Part shown: positions 27,984-53,108 of the stretch, one piece after another
Layout: every line of letters starts with the position of its first letter
Position numbering within the stretch: position 1 is the first letter of the stretch
Origin: Oleiharenicola sp.
GTDB taxonomy: Bacteria; Verrucomicrobiota; Verrucomicrobiia; Opitutales; Opitutaceae
Length of the DNA stretch: 64,000 nt
Assembly: GCA_025363455.1 (NCBI GenBank)
Contig: JANYDW010000063.1
Location: 1 to 64,000, forward strand
Direction of reading: 5' to 3'
The notes under the pieces: generated by a model
What the model was told of the DNA's origin: nothing
The model's input: only the letters and a program-made list of their open reading frames with translations
Database searches by the model: none
Translations under genes and position numbers: made by a program

Positions 27984-28772
27984 TCAATCCGCGGGCTTGG
28001 CGGCCGCCGCCGGCGCATGCAGCCAGGCGGCGTAGCGCTTCACGGCATTCTCCGGCACCACCAGCCGCCAGCGGTCGCCCTCGGCGCGCAGGGAGAACAA
28101 CAATCTTTTCTGCTGCCCCTCGGCATCGAAGATCTTGGCTGAGACGATCGTATCGACCGCCGAAGGATACTCGCCCAAAATCGTCGCGCTGCCGAGCGGC
28201 ACATCCTTGGCGCTCAGGACCGCGACCAGCCGCTCCGGTGAAACAAACTCCTGGCGGAGCTTCTCGGGCAGTTGCGCGTAAAGGGCCAGTGCCTCGGCCT
28301 GGGCGTCGGGCTCAAAGGCCAGCAGGCTGGCAAGGGCTTCGATGTCCCCGCCCGCCGAGGCCCACAGTGCGGTTTCAAGGGCCGCCGCCGGGGTCGCGGC
28401 CCCGCGGTTTTTCCAGAGTGGATGGGCCAGCACGTTTCCGGTCAGGGGAAGCGTAGGTGCAGCTTGTTCGGGCCCCTTCTCGAGGCGGGCGGCGGATTCG
28501 GTGGCTCGGTGCCGCAGCGAGTCGAGTTCCGCCTGCAATTGGGCCACGGCGGCCCGGTCGGCAAACAAGGTATCCAGCTCCGCGGGCGTCGCCTGCGTGG
28601 CGGCCAGACGCTGGTTCTCGGCTTGCAGTCGGGTGTGCTCCCGCACCAAGGCGCGCTGCCCGGCGATCTCGGCGCGCAATCCGACGGCCGTCTGGCGCTG
28701 CCGGCCGAGCATCGCCGCCGCCGCCAAGGCAAGCGCGGCAATCGTCACCCAAGGCCATGGGTTCGTGCGCAT
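27984..28772 (-). CDS. membrane-anchored coiled-coil protein, partner of sigma-TonB gene
   Basis: 262 residues. One N-terminal TM segment (about 7-25), a long coiled coil (about 28-100; LRAEIAGQRALVREHTRLQA, LQAELDSLRHRATESAARLE), then an extracytoplasmic C-terminal domain (about 115-255; VPENAVKRYAAWLH) that I do not recognise. It starts 3 bp after the stop of the sigma-TonB fusion gene, so the two are almost certainly one operon. Both proteins share a TM-plus-coiled-coil plan, which suggests they assemble together. Confidence 0.75.
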   Translation of the reverse strand: MRTNPWPWVTIAALALAAAAMLGRQRQTAVGLRAEIAGQRALVREHTRLQAENQRLAATQATPAELDTLFADRAAVAQLQAELDSLRHRATESAARLEKGPEQAAPTLPLTGNVLAHPLWKNRGAATPAAALETALWASAGGDIEALASLLAFEPDAQAEALALYAQLPEKLRQEFVSPERLVAVLSAKDVPLGSATILGEYPSAVDTIVSAKIFDAEGQQKRLLFSLRAEGDRWRLVVPENAVKRYAAWLHAPAAAAKPAD

Positions 28773-28775
28773 GGC

Positions 28776-30074
28776 TCAAAACCAGTCGCCGGGGGGAACG
28801 GCGTCCGGGTCGGCGTTGAATTCCAACACTTGGGTGACCCGCGTGTTGACCGCCCGGCCGCGGGCGAGGCCCGGCTCAAACTGCCAGGCGGTGACTGCCT
28901 CCAAGGCGGCGGCTTCAAAACCTGCATGGGAGGATTCATCGACCTTGGCTTGCTGTACCTTGCCGGTCGAATCGATCACCAGAGAGACGATGACCTTGCC
29001 GTTGATTCCGGCGGCCCGGAGTGCTGCCGGATAGGCCGGCGCTTTGCGGAAAGTGGCCACGGGTTTTTTGAAGAGTTCCCCGATACGCAGGGTCGGCACC
29101 ACGGCCGGGGCGGCCCGAGTCCGGGCGGGCCGCGAGTCCGTGGCTTGCAACTGGTGCTGGAGCGCGACGGCTTCATCGCGCAGGCGGACCAATTCCGCGT
29201 CGCTGACCTGGAGGGAGGCGGCTTGGTTCACGGTGCGTTCCAACCCGCGGTTCGCCTCGCGCAGGCTGGCGATTGCCCCGCTCTTCGGCGGCAGGGCGAG
29301 GAACTCGGCGCGCAAGGCGTCATTGTTTTTCTCCTGCACGGCGTAGACGCCGGCACCGGTCGCGACGACGATGCTGGCGATTCCGACTTGTAGTTTGGTG
29401 AGGCTCATAAAGGTGACGGCGGCAGCCGTGCTGGTGCCCGCCAGGGCCGCGCCGGTCACGGTGGCGGCGAGGCCAGCCGGGGCGGCGACGATCGCCTGGT
29501 TGGCCAGCGCGAGCGAAAGCGCTGTCGCAGTCGACGTCACCCCGCGCCGGGCGAGTAGTCCCCGCAACTTGTCCACGGCGCGGTCCACCCGCATGCGAGC
29601 AGCGTTGTCGGTGAGCGAAAGTTTCGCGCCGACCTGGGCGAAGTCGCAGCCTTCCAGGTAGCGCAGCAGGATCGCCTCGCGATCGCGTTCATCCATCTCC
29701 GCCAGGGCCTCGTCGAGCACCGGACGCACGCGCTCCCAGTCGAGCGCGGCGGTGGGATCTTGTTCTTGCATGAGTGGGGCCTCCTGTTCGCGGGTTCGCC
29801 GGCGGTGCTCGCCGCGCACCAGCTTGGCGGCGGCGAACCGCGTGCTGGTAAACAGCCAGCCGGCGAGTACCCGGTGGCCGGCCAGCGTCGCCGCCTTCCG
29901 GGCGAGATCGGTGAAGACCAGCTGGGAAACGTCCTGTGCGAGATGGGTGTCGCCATTCACCTGTCGCAGCGCCGCGGAGTACACGAGGTTCAGGTGCCGG
30001 CGCACCAGCTCGGCAAAATCGCCCTCGGAGCGATTTTCGGCGTAACGGCGGAGTAGGGTGGCGTCATCAAGCAT
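28776..30074 (-). CDS. ECF sigma factor fused to TonB C-terminal domain
   Basis: 432 residues, three parts in one frame. (1) ECF sigma: region 2 at about 8-95 (GDFAELVRRHLNLVYSAALR, HLAQDVSQLVFTDLARKAA) and region 4 at about 118-178 (ERDREAILLRYLEGCDFAQV with a helix-turn-helix). (2) An Ala-rich stretch and a TM segment at about 235-252 (VGIASIVVATGAGVYAV), then a coiled coil (270-310). (3) A TonB C-terminal domain at about 345-425 (APAYPAALRAAGINGKVIV, AVTAWQFEPGLARGRAV). TonB domains contact outer-membrane receptors. Membrane-tethered sigma factors with long extensions occur in Verrucomicrobiota; the TonB part is unusual. Start ATG 30074. Confidence 0.85.
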   Translation of the reverse strand: MLDDATLLRRYAENRSEGDFAELVRRHLNLVYSAALRQVNGDTHLAQDVSQLVFTDLARKAATLAGHRVLAGWLFTSTRFAAAKLVRGEHRRRTREQEAPLMQEQDPTAALDWERVRPVLDEALAEMDERDREAILLRYLEGCDFAQVGAKLSLTDNAARMRVDRAVDKLRGLLARRGVTSTATALSLALANQAIVAAPAGLAATVTGAALAGTSTAAAVTFMSLTKLQVGIASIVVATGAGVYAVQEKNNDALRAEFLALPPKSGAIASLREANRGLERTVNQAASLQVSDAELVRLRDEAVALQHQLQATDSRPARTRAAPAVVPTLRIGELFKKPVATFRKAPAYPAALRAAGINGKVIVSLVIDSTGKVQQAKVDESSHAGFEAAALEAVTAWQFEPGLARGRAVNTRVTQVLEFNADPDAVPPGDWF

Positions 30075-30115
30075 GGCGGTTCGACTAATAGCACCCGCCG
30101 GCCGGAAAACCGCAC

Positions 30116-30147
30116 AAAATAAAACGGGCCGGTAAAAACCGGCCCGT
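30116..30147 (-). terminator. rho-independent terminator after cysteine synthase
   Basis: On the minus strand, ACGGGCCGGT TTTT ACCGGCCCGT followed by TTTATTTT. Perfect 10-bp stem (30124-30133 with 30138-30147). Confidence 0.88.
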
Positions 30148-30201: not shown

Positions 30202-31290
30202 TCAGGCCGGCGGCGGCATCTGGTAACCGGGCGTGGACTTCGACAGCGCGTCCTCTTCGGGCGACATCAGCTCCACGATGCCCTCGAAGAGCGGTGTCGT
30301 CATATAACGTTCCCCCGTGTCGGGCAGCATCGCCAGAATGACGGACCCCGCGGGCGCTTTCTCGGCAATCTGCATGGCGACGGCAAAAGTGGCGCCGCCG
30401 GAGATCCCCGTAAAGATGCCTTCCTTCTGCGCGAGCTTGCGCGACCACTCGATGCCAGCCGGACCGGGGATCGAGATGAGCTGATCGTAGAATTTTTTGT
30501 CGAGGCCCTCCTGGAGCACGTAGGGAATAAAATCCGGCGTCCAGCCTTGGATGGGGTGCGCCGCCCACGCCGGGTGGCCGACCGACGGGCCATGGTCGGC
30601 GCCACGCGCTTGCGCGGTTCCGCTGGCGACGAGCGCCGCGCTGGCGGGCTCGCTCAGGATGATCTTCGTCTGCGGGCTTTCCTTGCGCAGCACGCGGCCG
30701 ACGCCGCTAAAGGTGCCGCCCGTCCCGTAGCCGGTCACGAAGTAGTCGAGCTTCTTCCCCTTGAAGTCGGCCATGATCTCGCGGCCGGTGGTGTTCTCGT
30801 GGATCATCGCGTTGGCCGCGGTCTCGAACTGCCGGGCGAGGAACCAGCCGTTCTTGTCGGCGAGTTCCTTGGCCTTGAGATACATGCCCATGCCCTTCGC
30901 CGCGCGCGGGGTGAGGACGACCTTGGCCCCGAGAAAGCGCATGAGCTTGCGCCGCTCGATGGAAAAACTGTCCGCCATCGTGACCACGAGTGGATAGCCT
31001 TTGGCGGCACAGACCATGGCGAGTCCGATGCCGGTGTTGCCGCTGGTCGCCTCGACAACGGTCTGGCCGGGCTTCAGTGCGCCACTGCGCTCGGCCTCCT
31101 CGATGATGCTGATGGCGAGGCGGTCCTTGACTGACGCGGCGGGATTGAAGAACTCGGCCTTCACGTAGACGGTGACGTGCTTCGGGGCGAGTTGGTTGAT
31201 GCGGATGCAGGGCGTGTTGCCGATCGTGTCGACGATGCTGTCGTATAGGCGGCCTTGGCCGGTGGTCTTGCGTGGGGCGGAGGAGCTCAT
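30202..31290 (-). CDS. cysK: cysteine synthase (PLP-dependent)
   Basis: 362 residues, O-acetylserine sulfhydrylase family; makes cysteine from O-acetylserine and sulfide. PLP-binding Lys55 is in NPAASVKDR; substrate loop VEATSGNTGIGLAM; phosphate loop TGYGTGGTFSGVGRVL. The C-terminal extension and the insert after ILSEPASAALVA make it somewhat longer than E. coli CysK. ATG at 31290 chosen; the open frame continues upstream without family similarity. Own terminator at 30116. Confidence 0.9.
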   Translation of the reverse strand: MSSSAPRKTTGQGRLYDSIVDTIGNTPCIRINQLAPKHVTVYVKAEFFNPAASVKDRLAISIIEEAERSGALKPGQTVVEATSGNTGIGLAMVCAAKGYPLVVTMADSFSIERRKLMRFLGAKVVLTPRAAKGMGMYLKAKELADKNGWFLARQFETAANAMIHENTTGREIMADFKGKKLDYFVTGYGTGGTFSGVGRVLRKESPQTKIILSEPASAALVASGTAQARGADHGPSVGHPAWAAHPIQGWTPDFIPYVLQEGLDKKFYDQLISIPGPAGIEWSRKLAQKEGIFTGISGGATFAVAMQIAEKAPAGSVILAMLPDTGERYMTTPLFEGIVELMSPEEDALSKSTPGYQMPPPA

Positions 31291-31416
31291 GGGAGGGAAG
31301 AGGTACGCCATTTCCATCCGGCAGGCAAGCGCGGTGCGAGTCACAGCCGAGCGCGACGGGCAGCGCCCCGCCGGGCGGGACAATGCGGTCGCAATGAAAA
31401 GGATTCACGCGGCCGC

Positions 31417-50711: not shown

Positions 50712-53108
50712 ATGCCTTCAACCCCCAAGCGTATGACCCCTGTTTACCCTGTTGCATTCACGCGGGCCCGGGCAGCTGGCTGCTGCTGCCTGGCCCTCCT
50801 CGCCCTCCGGGCCGCCGCCCAGACCGCCGCCCCGGCTCCCACCTCCGACACGGTGGTACTGCCCACCTTCACGGTGTCGACCAGCCAGGATGTCGGCTAC
50901 CGCGCCGCCAACTCAGTCTCGGCCACGCGCGTGGACACGCCGATCAAGGACCTGCCGTTCGCGATCAGCGCGTTTACGCAGCAGTTCATCACTGACATCG
51001 GCGCGCGCGACCTGTTCGACGTCGTGCAGTACGCGCCGAGCGTCACCAGCGCGGGCCGGGAATTCAACGCGGGCAACGCGGTCTACACGATCCGGGGGTA
51101 CGACCAGGCGCCCCAACACAACGGCTTCGTCGGCGAGGGCTACGTCGACACCGCCTCGATCGAGCGCGTCGAGGTGGTGAAGGGCCCGTCCTCGCTGCTT
51201 TACGGCCAGGTCGCACCCGGTGGGACCGTCAACTACATCACCAAGCGTGCGGGCGAAAAAGCCCAGACCATCATCAACGGCCAGTTCGGCACCCAGAATT
51301 TCTGGCGCACCTCCCTCGACCTCAACCAGCCGCTCGTCGGCCGGAAGCTCCTGTTCCGCTTCAACGGCGTGTATGAGAATGGCCGCGACAACATCAAGCC
51401 GAGCGGCCAGAAAACCCGCATCCTCGCCCCGACGCTCACCTGGAAGGTCAACGACCGCGTTGCGCTGACCCTGGACTACCAGTGGTTCCAACGCCGGGAG
51501 AAGCCCGAGGGCGCACAGCTCAAGCCCAACACCGAGATCGTCGGCCTGCCCGGCACCAACGGGATCCTGAGCGCCACCGGCCTGTTGATCAACCCGCTCA
51601 ACAACATCGATCCGGGTTTCCTGACCTACTATCCGCTGCCGGCGGATTTCAATTACGCCTCCCGGAACGATCACCGGGACACCGACTATGAGTCGCTCAA
51701 CGCGGAGCTGACGGTAAAGTTGACCGACCACTGGAACGCCCGCGCCAACTTCAACTGGAACAAGCGCCGGGTCGCCCAAAAGCTCACGGGCCTTGGCGCC
51801 GTGAGCATCACCGTGCCGACCAGCTACTACCCGGCGGGGGCGACCCTCCCGATCTCGGCCGCGAACTACAAGCTGGCGGCCTACGCCTATGCCGCCGACC
51901 TCCTCAACAACATCACCCTGGCGCTGCAGGCACCCCAGGCCCAACTCGGCCGGCGCAAACGCCTCCAGGAGGACTGGGGTTTTGGCGCGACTTCCCAGGT
52001 CGAGTTCGCGGGCAGCTTTGTCGTACCCGGCGCCAAGCTCAAGCCCCTCGTCGGCTTTTACTACAACGAGTCCCAGAGCAAGAGCCGCCTGCGCTCGAGC
52101 GCGACGGCGAATTTCTTTCCGGTCTGGGACATAAAAAACCCGGCCACCTGGGACTACAACACGAACTTCGACGTCAATGAGCAGCCGCTCACGACGAACT
52201 CGCGCTCCCCGGCCCGCAGTGCCGCCGCCTACGGCATCCTCAATGCCAGCTTCCTGAACGACCGCTTGAACGCGATGGTCGGCGCACGCTACAACGAATC
52301 CTCGGGTGCGACCGACAACTTCCTCACCCCCACTTCGAGCGTGGCCAAGGTGTCCGCGAAGAAAACCACGCCACAAGCTGGGATGGGCTGGAAGCTCAGC
52401 AACGACATGATGGTCTACGGCTCGTACAGCCAGTCCTACGTGAACAACGCGGCCGCCCTCCAGCGCGAGAACGTGCCCATCGGCCCGGCGGCTCCCACCA
52501 CCTCCGACGGCTACGAGCTCGGCCTGAAAACCGACTTCCTTGGCGGACGTGTGTCCTCCACGGTCGCCCTCTACACGATCGACCAGCGGGACCGCATCCT
52601 GCGCTTCAACTCCTTCAACGCCCTGGGCGTCACCGTGACCAACAGCCTGCAAGGCACCATCGACCGCAGCGAAGGCGTCGAGGTCGAGCTGACCTGGTCT
52701 CCGCTCGACAACTGGCAGATCTATGTGAGCGCCGCGCGGGACAACATCCGCGTGACCAAGGTCCCGGCCGGGGAGGAGGCTTTCCTCGGTGCCAACCCGG
52801 AGGCGACCGTCCGCGACCTGGCCAACCTGTGGACCCGCTACAGCTTCACGGGTGGATTAAAGGGCCTGTGGGTCGGGGCCGGCTTCAACTACTCCGGCAA
52901 AAAGGCGCAGCGCACCAACAACCCGGCGCTCTACCTTCCCGGGGAAACGCTCTACAATTCAGCCATTGGCTTCGATTGGAAACAGGAAGGTCACGACCTG
53001 AGCGCCGTGGTAAACTGGCAGAACATGGCCGACATTGAGTATTTCCCGGCCAACCAGCAGCGCGGCCAGCCCGGGCGCATTACGGCTTCATTCACCGCCA
53101 AGTTCTAA
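50712..53108 (+). CDS. TonB-dependent receptor
   Basis: 798 residues. Signal peptide (about 1-36), plug domain (about 60-180; IKDLPFAISAFTQQFITDIG, SIERVEVVKGPSSLLYGQVA, GGTVNYITKR) and a 22-strand-type barrel ending in GRITASFTAKF with the terminal aromatic residue. The plug resembles siderophore-type receptors, but the genomic setting (fucosidase, lyase, symporter) suggests glycan uptake. No SusD gene next to it. A terminator follows at 53132. Confidence 0.9.
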   Translation: MPSTPKRMTPVYPVAFTRARAAGCCCLALLALRAAAQTAAPAPTSDTVVLPTFTVSTSQDVGYRAANSVSATRVDTPIKDLPFAISAFTQQFITDIGARDLFDVVQYAPSVTSAGREFNAGNAVYTIRGYDQAPQHNGFVGEGYVDTASIERVEVVKGPSSLLYGQVAPGGTVNYITKRAGEKAQTIINGQFGTQNFWRTSLDLNQPLVGRKLLFRFNGVYENGRDNIKPSGQKTRILAPTLTWKVNDRVALTLDYQWFQRREKPEGAQLKPNTEIVGLPGTNGILSATGLLINPLNNIDPGFLTYYPLPADFNYASRNDHRDTDYESLNAELTVKLTDHWNARANFNWNKRRVAQKLTGLGAVSITVPTSYYPAGATLPISAANYKLAAYAYAADLLNNITLALQAPQAQLGRRKRLQEDWGFGATSQVEFAGSFVVPGAKLKPLVGFYYNESQSKSRLRSSATANFFPVWDIKNPATWDYNTNFDVNEQPLTTNSRSPARSAAAYGILNASFLNDRLNAMVGARYNESSGATDNFLTPTSSVAKVSAKKTTPQAGMGWKLSNDMMVYGSYSQSYVNNAAALQRENVPIGPAAPTTSDGYELGLKTDFLGGRVSSTVALYTIDQRDRILRFNSFNALGVTVTNSLQGTIDRSEGVEVELTWSPLDNWQIYVSAARDNIRVTKVPAGEEAFLGANPEATVRDLANLWTRYSFTGGLKGLWVGAGFNYSGKKAQRTNNPALYLPGETLYNSAIGFDWKQEGHDLSAVVNWQNMADIEYFPANQQRGQPGRITASFTAKF

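Follow-up and report, generated by a model that had tools for sequence, protein, structure and literature searches.

How the status of outer-membrane transport is relayed to transcription is known mainly from systems that combine a signaling domain on a receptor with a FecR-type anti-sigma factor. The anti-sigma domain of IutY from Pseudomonas putida is of this FecR type. In IutY, a cytosolic ECF sigma factor and a periplasmic regulatory part are joined in one membrane polypeptide, a single-chain sigma/anti-sigma fusion that is described as being cut by Prc and RseP and whose system is tied to an iron-carrier receptor (PMC5411451). ECF52 (SCO4117 of Streptomyces) similarly unites a sigma factor, a transmembrane (TM) segment, and a binding-domain extension, and regulation of its own gene is reported (PMC5826349). 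As far as these two accounts describe them, single-chain sigma-TM-sensor proteins are thus already known (PMC5411451, PMC5826349). In the FoxI-FoxR-FoxA system, the signal of a TonB-dependent receptor reaches an ECF sigma factor, and FoxR is described as protected from proteolysis by the signaling domain of the receptor (PMC11637429). C-terminal regulatory extensions of sigma factors are also known (PMC8103513), among them those of ECF41 and ECF42, which regulate the sigma factor (in part from PMC8103513).

The window analyzed here, a stretch of 64,000 nucleotides from Oleiharenicola sp. (Opitutaceae, contig JANYDW010000063.1), encodes a protein of comparable single-chain layout, with the following features.

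28776..30074, minus strand: gene of the sigma-TM-coiled coil-TonB_C fusion, 432 amino acids, stop included
29541..30074, minus strand: ECF sigma domain with regions 2 and 4, residues 1-178 (Pfam, NCBIfam TIGR02937, AlphaFold2, Foldseek)
29397..29540, minus strand: family-wide hydrophobic, Ala-rich linker, about residues 179-226 (alignments and hydropathy; pLDDT mostly <50)
29334..29393, minus strand: main TM segment, about residues 228-247, without the SxxxH motor motif of TonB (hydropathy)
29133..29282, minus strand: long helix or coiled coil, predicted periplasmic, residues 265-314 (AlphaFold2)
28815..29042, minus strand: TonB_C domain, residues 345-420 (Pfam E 7.1e-19; TMt 0.84-0.86 to receptor-bound TonB)
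28779..28784, minus strand: Trp-Phe (WF) tail, residues 431-432, the C-terminus (8/8 aligned fusions; 39/184 sigma ORFs)

Architecture, topology, and family of the fusion

The original prediction that a single polypeptide combines an ECF sigma factor, a TM helix, a coiled coil, and a TonB domain is borne out by the unbroken 432-residue frame, by Pfam, by hydropathy, and by AlphaFold2. Pfam places Sigma70_r2 at residues 23-91 (E 4.9e-6), Sigma70_r4_2 at residues 120-170 (E 5e-10), and TonB_C at the position listed, all above the curated cutoffs, and finds no match to sigma region 3; the fusion therefore has the domain content of an ECF sigma factor (sigma-70 family group 4), with regions 2 and 4 and without region 3. 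Among the best 25 of 76 rows of the NCBIfam search, only the broad ECF superfamily model TIGR02937 (66.2 bits against a cutoff of 42.9) and tonB_Cterm exceed their cutoffs, and Sig-70_gvs1, the model of a Rhodopirellula/Verrucomicrobium family, stays below its own (47.7 bits against 124.55). The two AlphaFold2 alignments (18 and 20 rows) drew on the window and its related loci only. In the model of the fusion, from 18 rows, the sigma part and the TonB fold are confident, a helix spans residues 265-314, and pLDDT falls below 50 at residues 192-248 and in the last residues. In Foldseek, the sigma part matches the ECF sigma factors 1or7 and 4nqw, and the TonB part matches 6i97_D (TMt 0.86) and 2gsk_B (TMt 0.84), which are TonB bound to the receptors FoxA and BtuB, so that the TonB fold, too, is supported by the predicted structure. 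A TonB-dependent receptor gene lies at 50733-53108 on the plus strand, about 20 kb from the fusion (barrel E 5.9e-34, plug E 1.8e-16).

The orientation of the protein in the membrane can be approached from hydropathy, charge, and the origin of its domains. Hydropathy in the linker region peaks in the 19-mer 228-246 (Kyte-Doolittle 1.76), and a second 19-mer at 194-212 comes nearly as high (1.73); if both crossed the membrane, TonB_C would be cytoplasmic. Across 58 family members, the mean net charge around the main segment is positive on its N-terminal and negative on its C-terminal side. In addition, the TonB_C, TPR, and ExbD donors considered below are all periplasmic in the Ton system, which supports a periplasmic C-terminus of the sigma fusions. 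Together, these features support placing TonB_C on the periplasmic side, with the second hydrophobic stretch leaving an alternative topology.

A search for the same domain order elsewhere was successful: across 57 genomes, seven full-length relatives align end to end with the fusion at 38-68% identity. Four of them come from genomes of one or two contigs (G016, G023, G024, and G033), which excludes an artifact of frame or assembly as the source of the architecture. Of 252 genomes of the family, 95 encode a sigma relative with E ≤1e-60, and at least 48 (counted by hand) hold a match that reaches profile position 391 or beyond of 441, that is, the TonB part. Among the matches listed (80 named loci of 284 relatives), nearly all are from Verrucomicrobiota metagenome assemblies, many of them Opitutaceae. 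The genome of the window itself encodes four further sigma-TM proteins (L002-L005) with other C-terminal parts, in which no Pfam family is found above its cutoff. Comparison across genomes thus shows the fusion to belong to a large family of proteins predicted to join a sigma factor, a TM segment, and a periplasmic domain.

Two members of the family deserve separate mention. In Candidatus Synoicihabitans palmerolidicus, which we take to be a symbiont, the copy at L170 3965-5231 is frame-broken between the sigma and TonB parts, and the TonB remnant still ends in WF and is followed by a partner-like gene. A fusion and its partner also occur on a contig labeled Dechloromonas (Pseudomonadota; L118); the protein closest to this fusion in the sigma tree comes from Opitutaceae, so the contig is probably mis-binned.

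For the class comparisons that follow, we compiled 184 distinct complete sigma ORFs, excluding incomplete ORFs, sigma matches weaker than 1e-25, duplicates, and hits with a profile match beginning beyond position 25. By their C-terminal parts, these comprise 55 TonB-type, 2 TPR, 1 ExbD-like, and 20 Y-type proteins (the Y domain is described below) and 106 classed as "other"; as WF-ended TonB fusions served as queries to retrieve the loci, these counts are not the frequencies of a random sample.

Ton components, the Trp-Phe tail, and the partner gene

The WF end, which closes all of the eight aligned fusions after linkers of differing length, is found in 39 of the 184 sigma ORFs, of which 36 carry TonB_C, 2 a TPR segment (L119 and L122), and 1 an ExbD-like domain (L078). 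A Ton-component domain is accordingly present in 39/39 ORFs with the WF end, compared with 19/145 without it. The tail is absent from 19 of the 55 TonB-type proteins and from all 20 Y-type and all 106 "other" ORFs. On the sigma tree (148 rows, namely, 78 of a named C-terminal class and the first 70 of 99 "other" proteins longer than 330 residues), the WF label changes 16 times against other named classes, with at least 6 of these changes forced by supported branches. The TonB_C tree (95 columns), in which only the fusions of the window's genus adjoin Ton-operon TonBs, is too poorly resolved to tell the number of fusion origins.

The likely donors of these domains lie together in the Ton operon, which in the window's genome is found as follows.

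G000:C23, locus L075: Ton operon with exbB, exbD, exbD, tonB, TPR, and a pair of coiled-coil genes (Pfam identifies TonB and TPR; exbB and exbD were assigned by eye and from similarity)

Within this genome, the closest match of the fusion's TonB_C is the Ton-operon TonB (52%), followed by one at 42%. The TPR segment of L119 finds its best match in the Ton-operon TPR gene next to tonB in five of six genomes searched (in G023 with 52% identity and E 5.6e-28), and in the sixth, G033, it has a weak match elsewhere only. For the ExbD-like domain of L078, the best non-self match is the ExbD beside the same tonB in all five genomes with a hit (six searched). Adjacency to tonB was taken from match coordinates, and the Pfam matches of the exchanged domains are weak (ExbD E 0.009, TPR_1 E 0.002). 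The exchange of TonB for a TPR or ExbD-like domain in three sister proteins fits a link to the Ton machinery, with two TPR cases and one ExbD case being few.

These data also bear on the idea that the scaffold is a generic sensor that tries many periplasmic domains, TonB_C being a small binding or dimerizing domain unrelated to the Ton system. Such a reading gains from the 106 "other" and 20 Y-type proteins, which make up most of the relatives, from 20 further stretches of the window's genome with similarity to the fusion's TonB part, and from the occurrence of TonB_C-like domains in stand-alone envelope proteins. However, it does not lead one to expect that the domain is a Ton component throughout the WF subfamily, or that neighbors in one operon give the best matches for the TPR and ExbD-like types, a pattern that would not come from a random draw of periplasmic domains; we regard it as unlikely, if still a serious contender. 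On balance, it appears probable that the fusion reads the Ton system.

What the sigma fusions appear to have taken over is the periplasmic portion of Ton components. The SxxxH motor motif is found in the TM helix of none of the 58 Ton-component sigma proteins, whereas an S...H pattern occurs within the first 110 residues of 17 of 33 sigma-less TonB ORFs of at least 150 residues; this suggests that periplasmic Ton parts, and not the motor-driven part, were copied. The Ton operon of the same genome differs from the fusion in kind, as it includes no sigma factor and its TonB has an N-terminal TM helix with an SxxxH-type sequence and no WF. That the fusion acts as an energized TonB is ruled out by the missing motif. 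A related proposal, that it is chiefly a TonB-like protein with a relic sigma part, could draw on the P-x-[YF]-P motif of TonB_C, which is kept in 44/47 single-domain fusions, but the sigma regions remain conserved, the promoter-like element described below is retained before many of the genes, and the motor motif is lacking in all 58, so that this proposal is hardly credible.

Downstream of the fusion lies a second gene that recurs across the family.

27984..28772, minus strand: partner gene, 262 amino acids, with an N-terminal TM helix, a coiled coil, and a probably NTF2-like domain
28017..28421, minus strand: residues 118-252 of the partner, here called the Y domain, with a probably NTF2-like fold (AlphaFold2 pLDDT mostly >90)

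The partner gene starts 3 bp after the stop codon of the fusion, and its product is a TM-coiled-coil protein, as originally described. AlphaFold2 predicts a helix from residue 6 and, at high confidence, an alpha+beta domain at 118-252. Foldseek returns weak NTF2-like matches for this Y domain (best 3k7c_A, E 1.9e-3, TMt 0.60; none at E ≤0.001).

Among the 172 of 184 sigma ORFs with more than 700 bp of downstream sequence, a Y-domain gene follows 38/38 WF ORFs, 6/18 TonB-type ORFs without WF, 12/19 Y-type ORFs, and 2/97 of the "other" class, the last two being broken copies (L213 with an internal stop and L170, frame-broken). The partner can thus occur without WF, and 12 of the 18 testable TonB-type proteins without WF have no recognized partner; WF without a partner was not seen in the 172 ORFs. 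In 30 of the 38 cases, the partner starts 1-12 bp past the sigma stop (starts chosen by script). An independent-pairs test of the link between WF and partner gave 7 pairs over all rows, with 0 against and a median p of 0.031 (range 0.016-0.125). Restricted to the 56 rows with a Ton component, the test gave 6 pairs (4.0 same, 0 against) and a median p of 0.125, which is not significant; the link is therefore suggestive, and shared ancestry may account for it. In 20/184 ORFs, a Y domain follows the TM segment of the sigma factor itself, which ties this domain to the signaling family.

The original prediction saw in this neighbor a possible partner or anti-sigma factor, and of these two roles only that of a conserved partner stands. 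If TonB_C were to couple receptor state to the sigma factor, with the downstream gene encoding the anti-sigma factor, the adjacency and co-conservation of the two genes would be readily explained. Against this, the partner has few residues before its TM helix, and no anti-sigma family is among the 18 Pfam families matched by the 20 members scanned. Moreover, the Y domain behind the TM segment of sigma paralogues would lie on the outer side if their C-terminus is periplasmic. With neither space for a cytoplasmic anti-sigma domain nor a Pfam match to one, we reject the partner as a classical anti-sigma factor and consider this version of receptor coupling very unlikely. A hydrophobic stretch is found near the N-terminus of 37/38 partners (the 38th, L207, is cut short), and the protein looks like a periplasmic co-sensor, as judged from sequence and structure prediction.

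Whether the WF tail serves an interaction with this partner is, in our estimation, evenly balanced. A V/I-P dipeptide at partner residues 191-192 is shared by 32/38 WF-partnered Y domains and 0/40 others in one alignment, a difference that we keep as a lead only, as relatedness confounds it; the partner of L092 has L-P in its place. The surrounding residues 189-194 (window 28191-28208) may be regarded as a candidate docking site for the WF tail.

Promoter-like element and lipoprotein gene

Upstream of the fusion, two features were found.

30089..30117, minus strand: promoter-like element with the consensus TTGTGCGRTTT N7 GGCGGGTGCTA, 14 bp before the ATG
30124..30147, minus strand: intrinsic-terminator-like hairpin just upstream of the element, with the longest stem (10 pairs)

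Before the fusion, the element reads TTGTGCGGTTT-N7-GGCGGGTGCTA, which was matched in 0 of 100 shuffles. Within four mismatches, it is present in 76 of 181 sigma upstream regions (of the 184 ORFs), mostly 10-16 bp before the start, compared with 0 for reversed and 0 for shuffled controls. By class, this corresponds to 20/36 WF TonB genes (thus missing before 16), 14/18 TonB genes without WF, 5/20 Y-type, 37/104 "other," and 0/3 TPR/ExbD-type genes. The -35-like part TTTGTKCGRTTT alone, at up to one mismatch, occurs in 95/181 regions against 0 in the reversed and about 0.3 in the shuffled control. Judged by eye, the -10-like part differs between sigma classes and TTTGTKCGRTTT is common across the sigma-TM family, which suggests family-wide autoregulation with class-specific recognition of the -10 part. 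Of the 91 rows in which a site could be placed, 13 show an inverted repeat of five pairs between element and start codon, against a chance expectation of about 0.036 for each row.

Across the 252 genomes, 43 sites with zero to two mismatches were counted by hand, of which 37 precede sigma-family genes, 3 precede a lipoprotein gene, 1 lies at a contig end, and 2 precede nothing evident. At three mismatches, 76 real hits stand against about 60 for the reversed pattern (hand count; mismatch levels of the control unspecified), so that such hits are no evidence alone and only the 43 sites are interpreted as a set. Given this promoter-like element, the sigma factor may regulate its own gene; control of this kind through a bipartite promoter is frequent among ECF sigma factors, if not general.

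A terminator scan of 3.7 kb gave 6 hairpin sites, where shuffled sequence gave 3.4, and the one with the longest stem, at 30124-30147, probably ends the PALP-family gene at 30202-31317; the sigma gene would then start its own unit. This PALP-family gene, behind which the fusion stands, is cysteine-synthase-like. At another locus (L070, G052:C1 53000-65711), five tandem sigma-TM paralogues lie directly before sulfate-assimilation-like genes, judged by their starts only. From these two neighborhoods, a sulfur link of the sigma-TM family is possible.

The lipoprotein, here called Z, has about 190 residues, with an invariant lipobox-like Cys in 10/10 aligned sequences and a divergent TonB_C, which matches the Pfam model at E ≤0.1 in 9 of 10 members (best 1.8e-5). 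It is present in 31/252 genomes at E 1e-15 and lies within 2.5 kb of 12/53 TonB-type sigma genes for which 700 bp or more of upstream sequence is available, compared with 1/97 "other," 0/18 Y-type, and 0/3 TPR/ExbD-type genes. In G007, G010, G012, G014, G017, and G018, six genomes from the genus of the window, Z is present and a sigma relative at E 1e-60 is absent. In the window's own genome, Z is an open frame outside the window (contig C38, L270 940-1485, plus strand) that, as the first member, scores 18.2 bits for TonB_C against a cutoff of 24.6. It lies directly before a second, frame-broken sigma-TonB copy (G000:C38, locus L270/L312), and a form of the element with three mismatches precedes this copy. 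A three-mismatch site in G023 precedes the gene of a secreted-looking 134-residue TonB_C protein.

Proposed mechanism and relation to described systems

When these observations are placed together, the fusion could be a one-piece, autoregulated cell-surface-signaling sigma factor that reads the Ton complex through borrowed Ton parts, a proposal that we consider to have an even chance of being correct. Its own TM helix would keep the sigma domain at the inner membrane, with the copy of TonB_C sampling what the TonB of the cell samples, be it receptor TonB boxes or further parts of the Ton system, and with the WF tail covered by the Y domain of the partner or by whatever the complex binds. A change in Ton traffic would then undock the periplasmic part, which could be trimmed from its C-terminus before a site-2 protease cuts the TM helix. 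The freed sigma factor would transcribe its own operon and, where present, the lipoprotein gene. We infer that the WF end could serve as a recognition signal for a protease or for the partner. The genome of the window has a Peptidase_M50 match (the site-2 protease family) and three Peptidase_S41 matches, which are general types.

Release of the sigma factor by proteolysis, suggested by analogy, falls slightly short of an even chance in our assessment. The periplasmic part could instead switch conformation or recruit target DNA with the sigma factor still tethered, and the few targets visible through the element, namely, family sigma genes and the lipoprotein gene, would leave few promoters to reach. 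As cleavage is required in IutY according to the account of that protein, this tethered action seems quite unlikely (PMC5411451). Taking the release model further, it could be speculated that Opitutaceae use a new class of transmembrane signaling in which a sigma factor is built into the Ton machinery, wears one part of the Ton operon, and is latched by its WF end to an NTF2-like partner, its release yielding more of itself and Z to compete for the same sites, so that Ton demand and not one ligand is sensed; as a whole, this picture is doubtful. If true, a sigma factor carrying Ton parts would be a shortcut able to report how heavily the transport motor is loaded. TonB, ExbD, and TPR domains replace one another on a shared scaffold that keeps its two-residue tail and its partner, which offers a direct handle for dissection, and the targets predicted from the promoter-like element are open to verification.

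A sigma-TonB fusion was not found in the titles and abstract starts of the open-license papers searched, and in a recent study of Ton and Tol force transducers the term "sigma factor" is absent from the main text as available (PMC12204202). Compared with the three separate proteins of FoxI-FoxR-FoxA, where the signaling domain is described on the receptor (PMC11637429), the locus described here would gather sigma factor and Ton component in one chain. ECF52 differs in its zinc finger, proline-rich extension, and carbohydrate-binding domain and is described as exclusive to Actinobacteria, with no Ton components named in the parts of that report considered (PMC5826349). IutY carries a periplasmic anti-sigma domain, whereas the window fusion has TonB_C (TPR or ExbD-like domains in its sisters), the WF tail, and a separate partner gene. 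At E values up to 1, no Pfam FecR hit is found in the fusion or the partner, with FecR matches present elsewhere in the genome. The extensions of ECF41 and ECF42 are SnoaL-like or TPR domains and are cytoplasmic, and SnoaL_2 has an NTF2-like fold. In the fusion described here, by comparison, a TM segment separates the extension from the sigma domain, and the domain that is probably NTF2-like belongs to a second protein. Relative to these described systems, the new elements are the sensor parts, the WF tail, the partner, and the lipoprotein.
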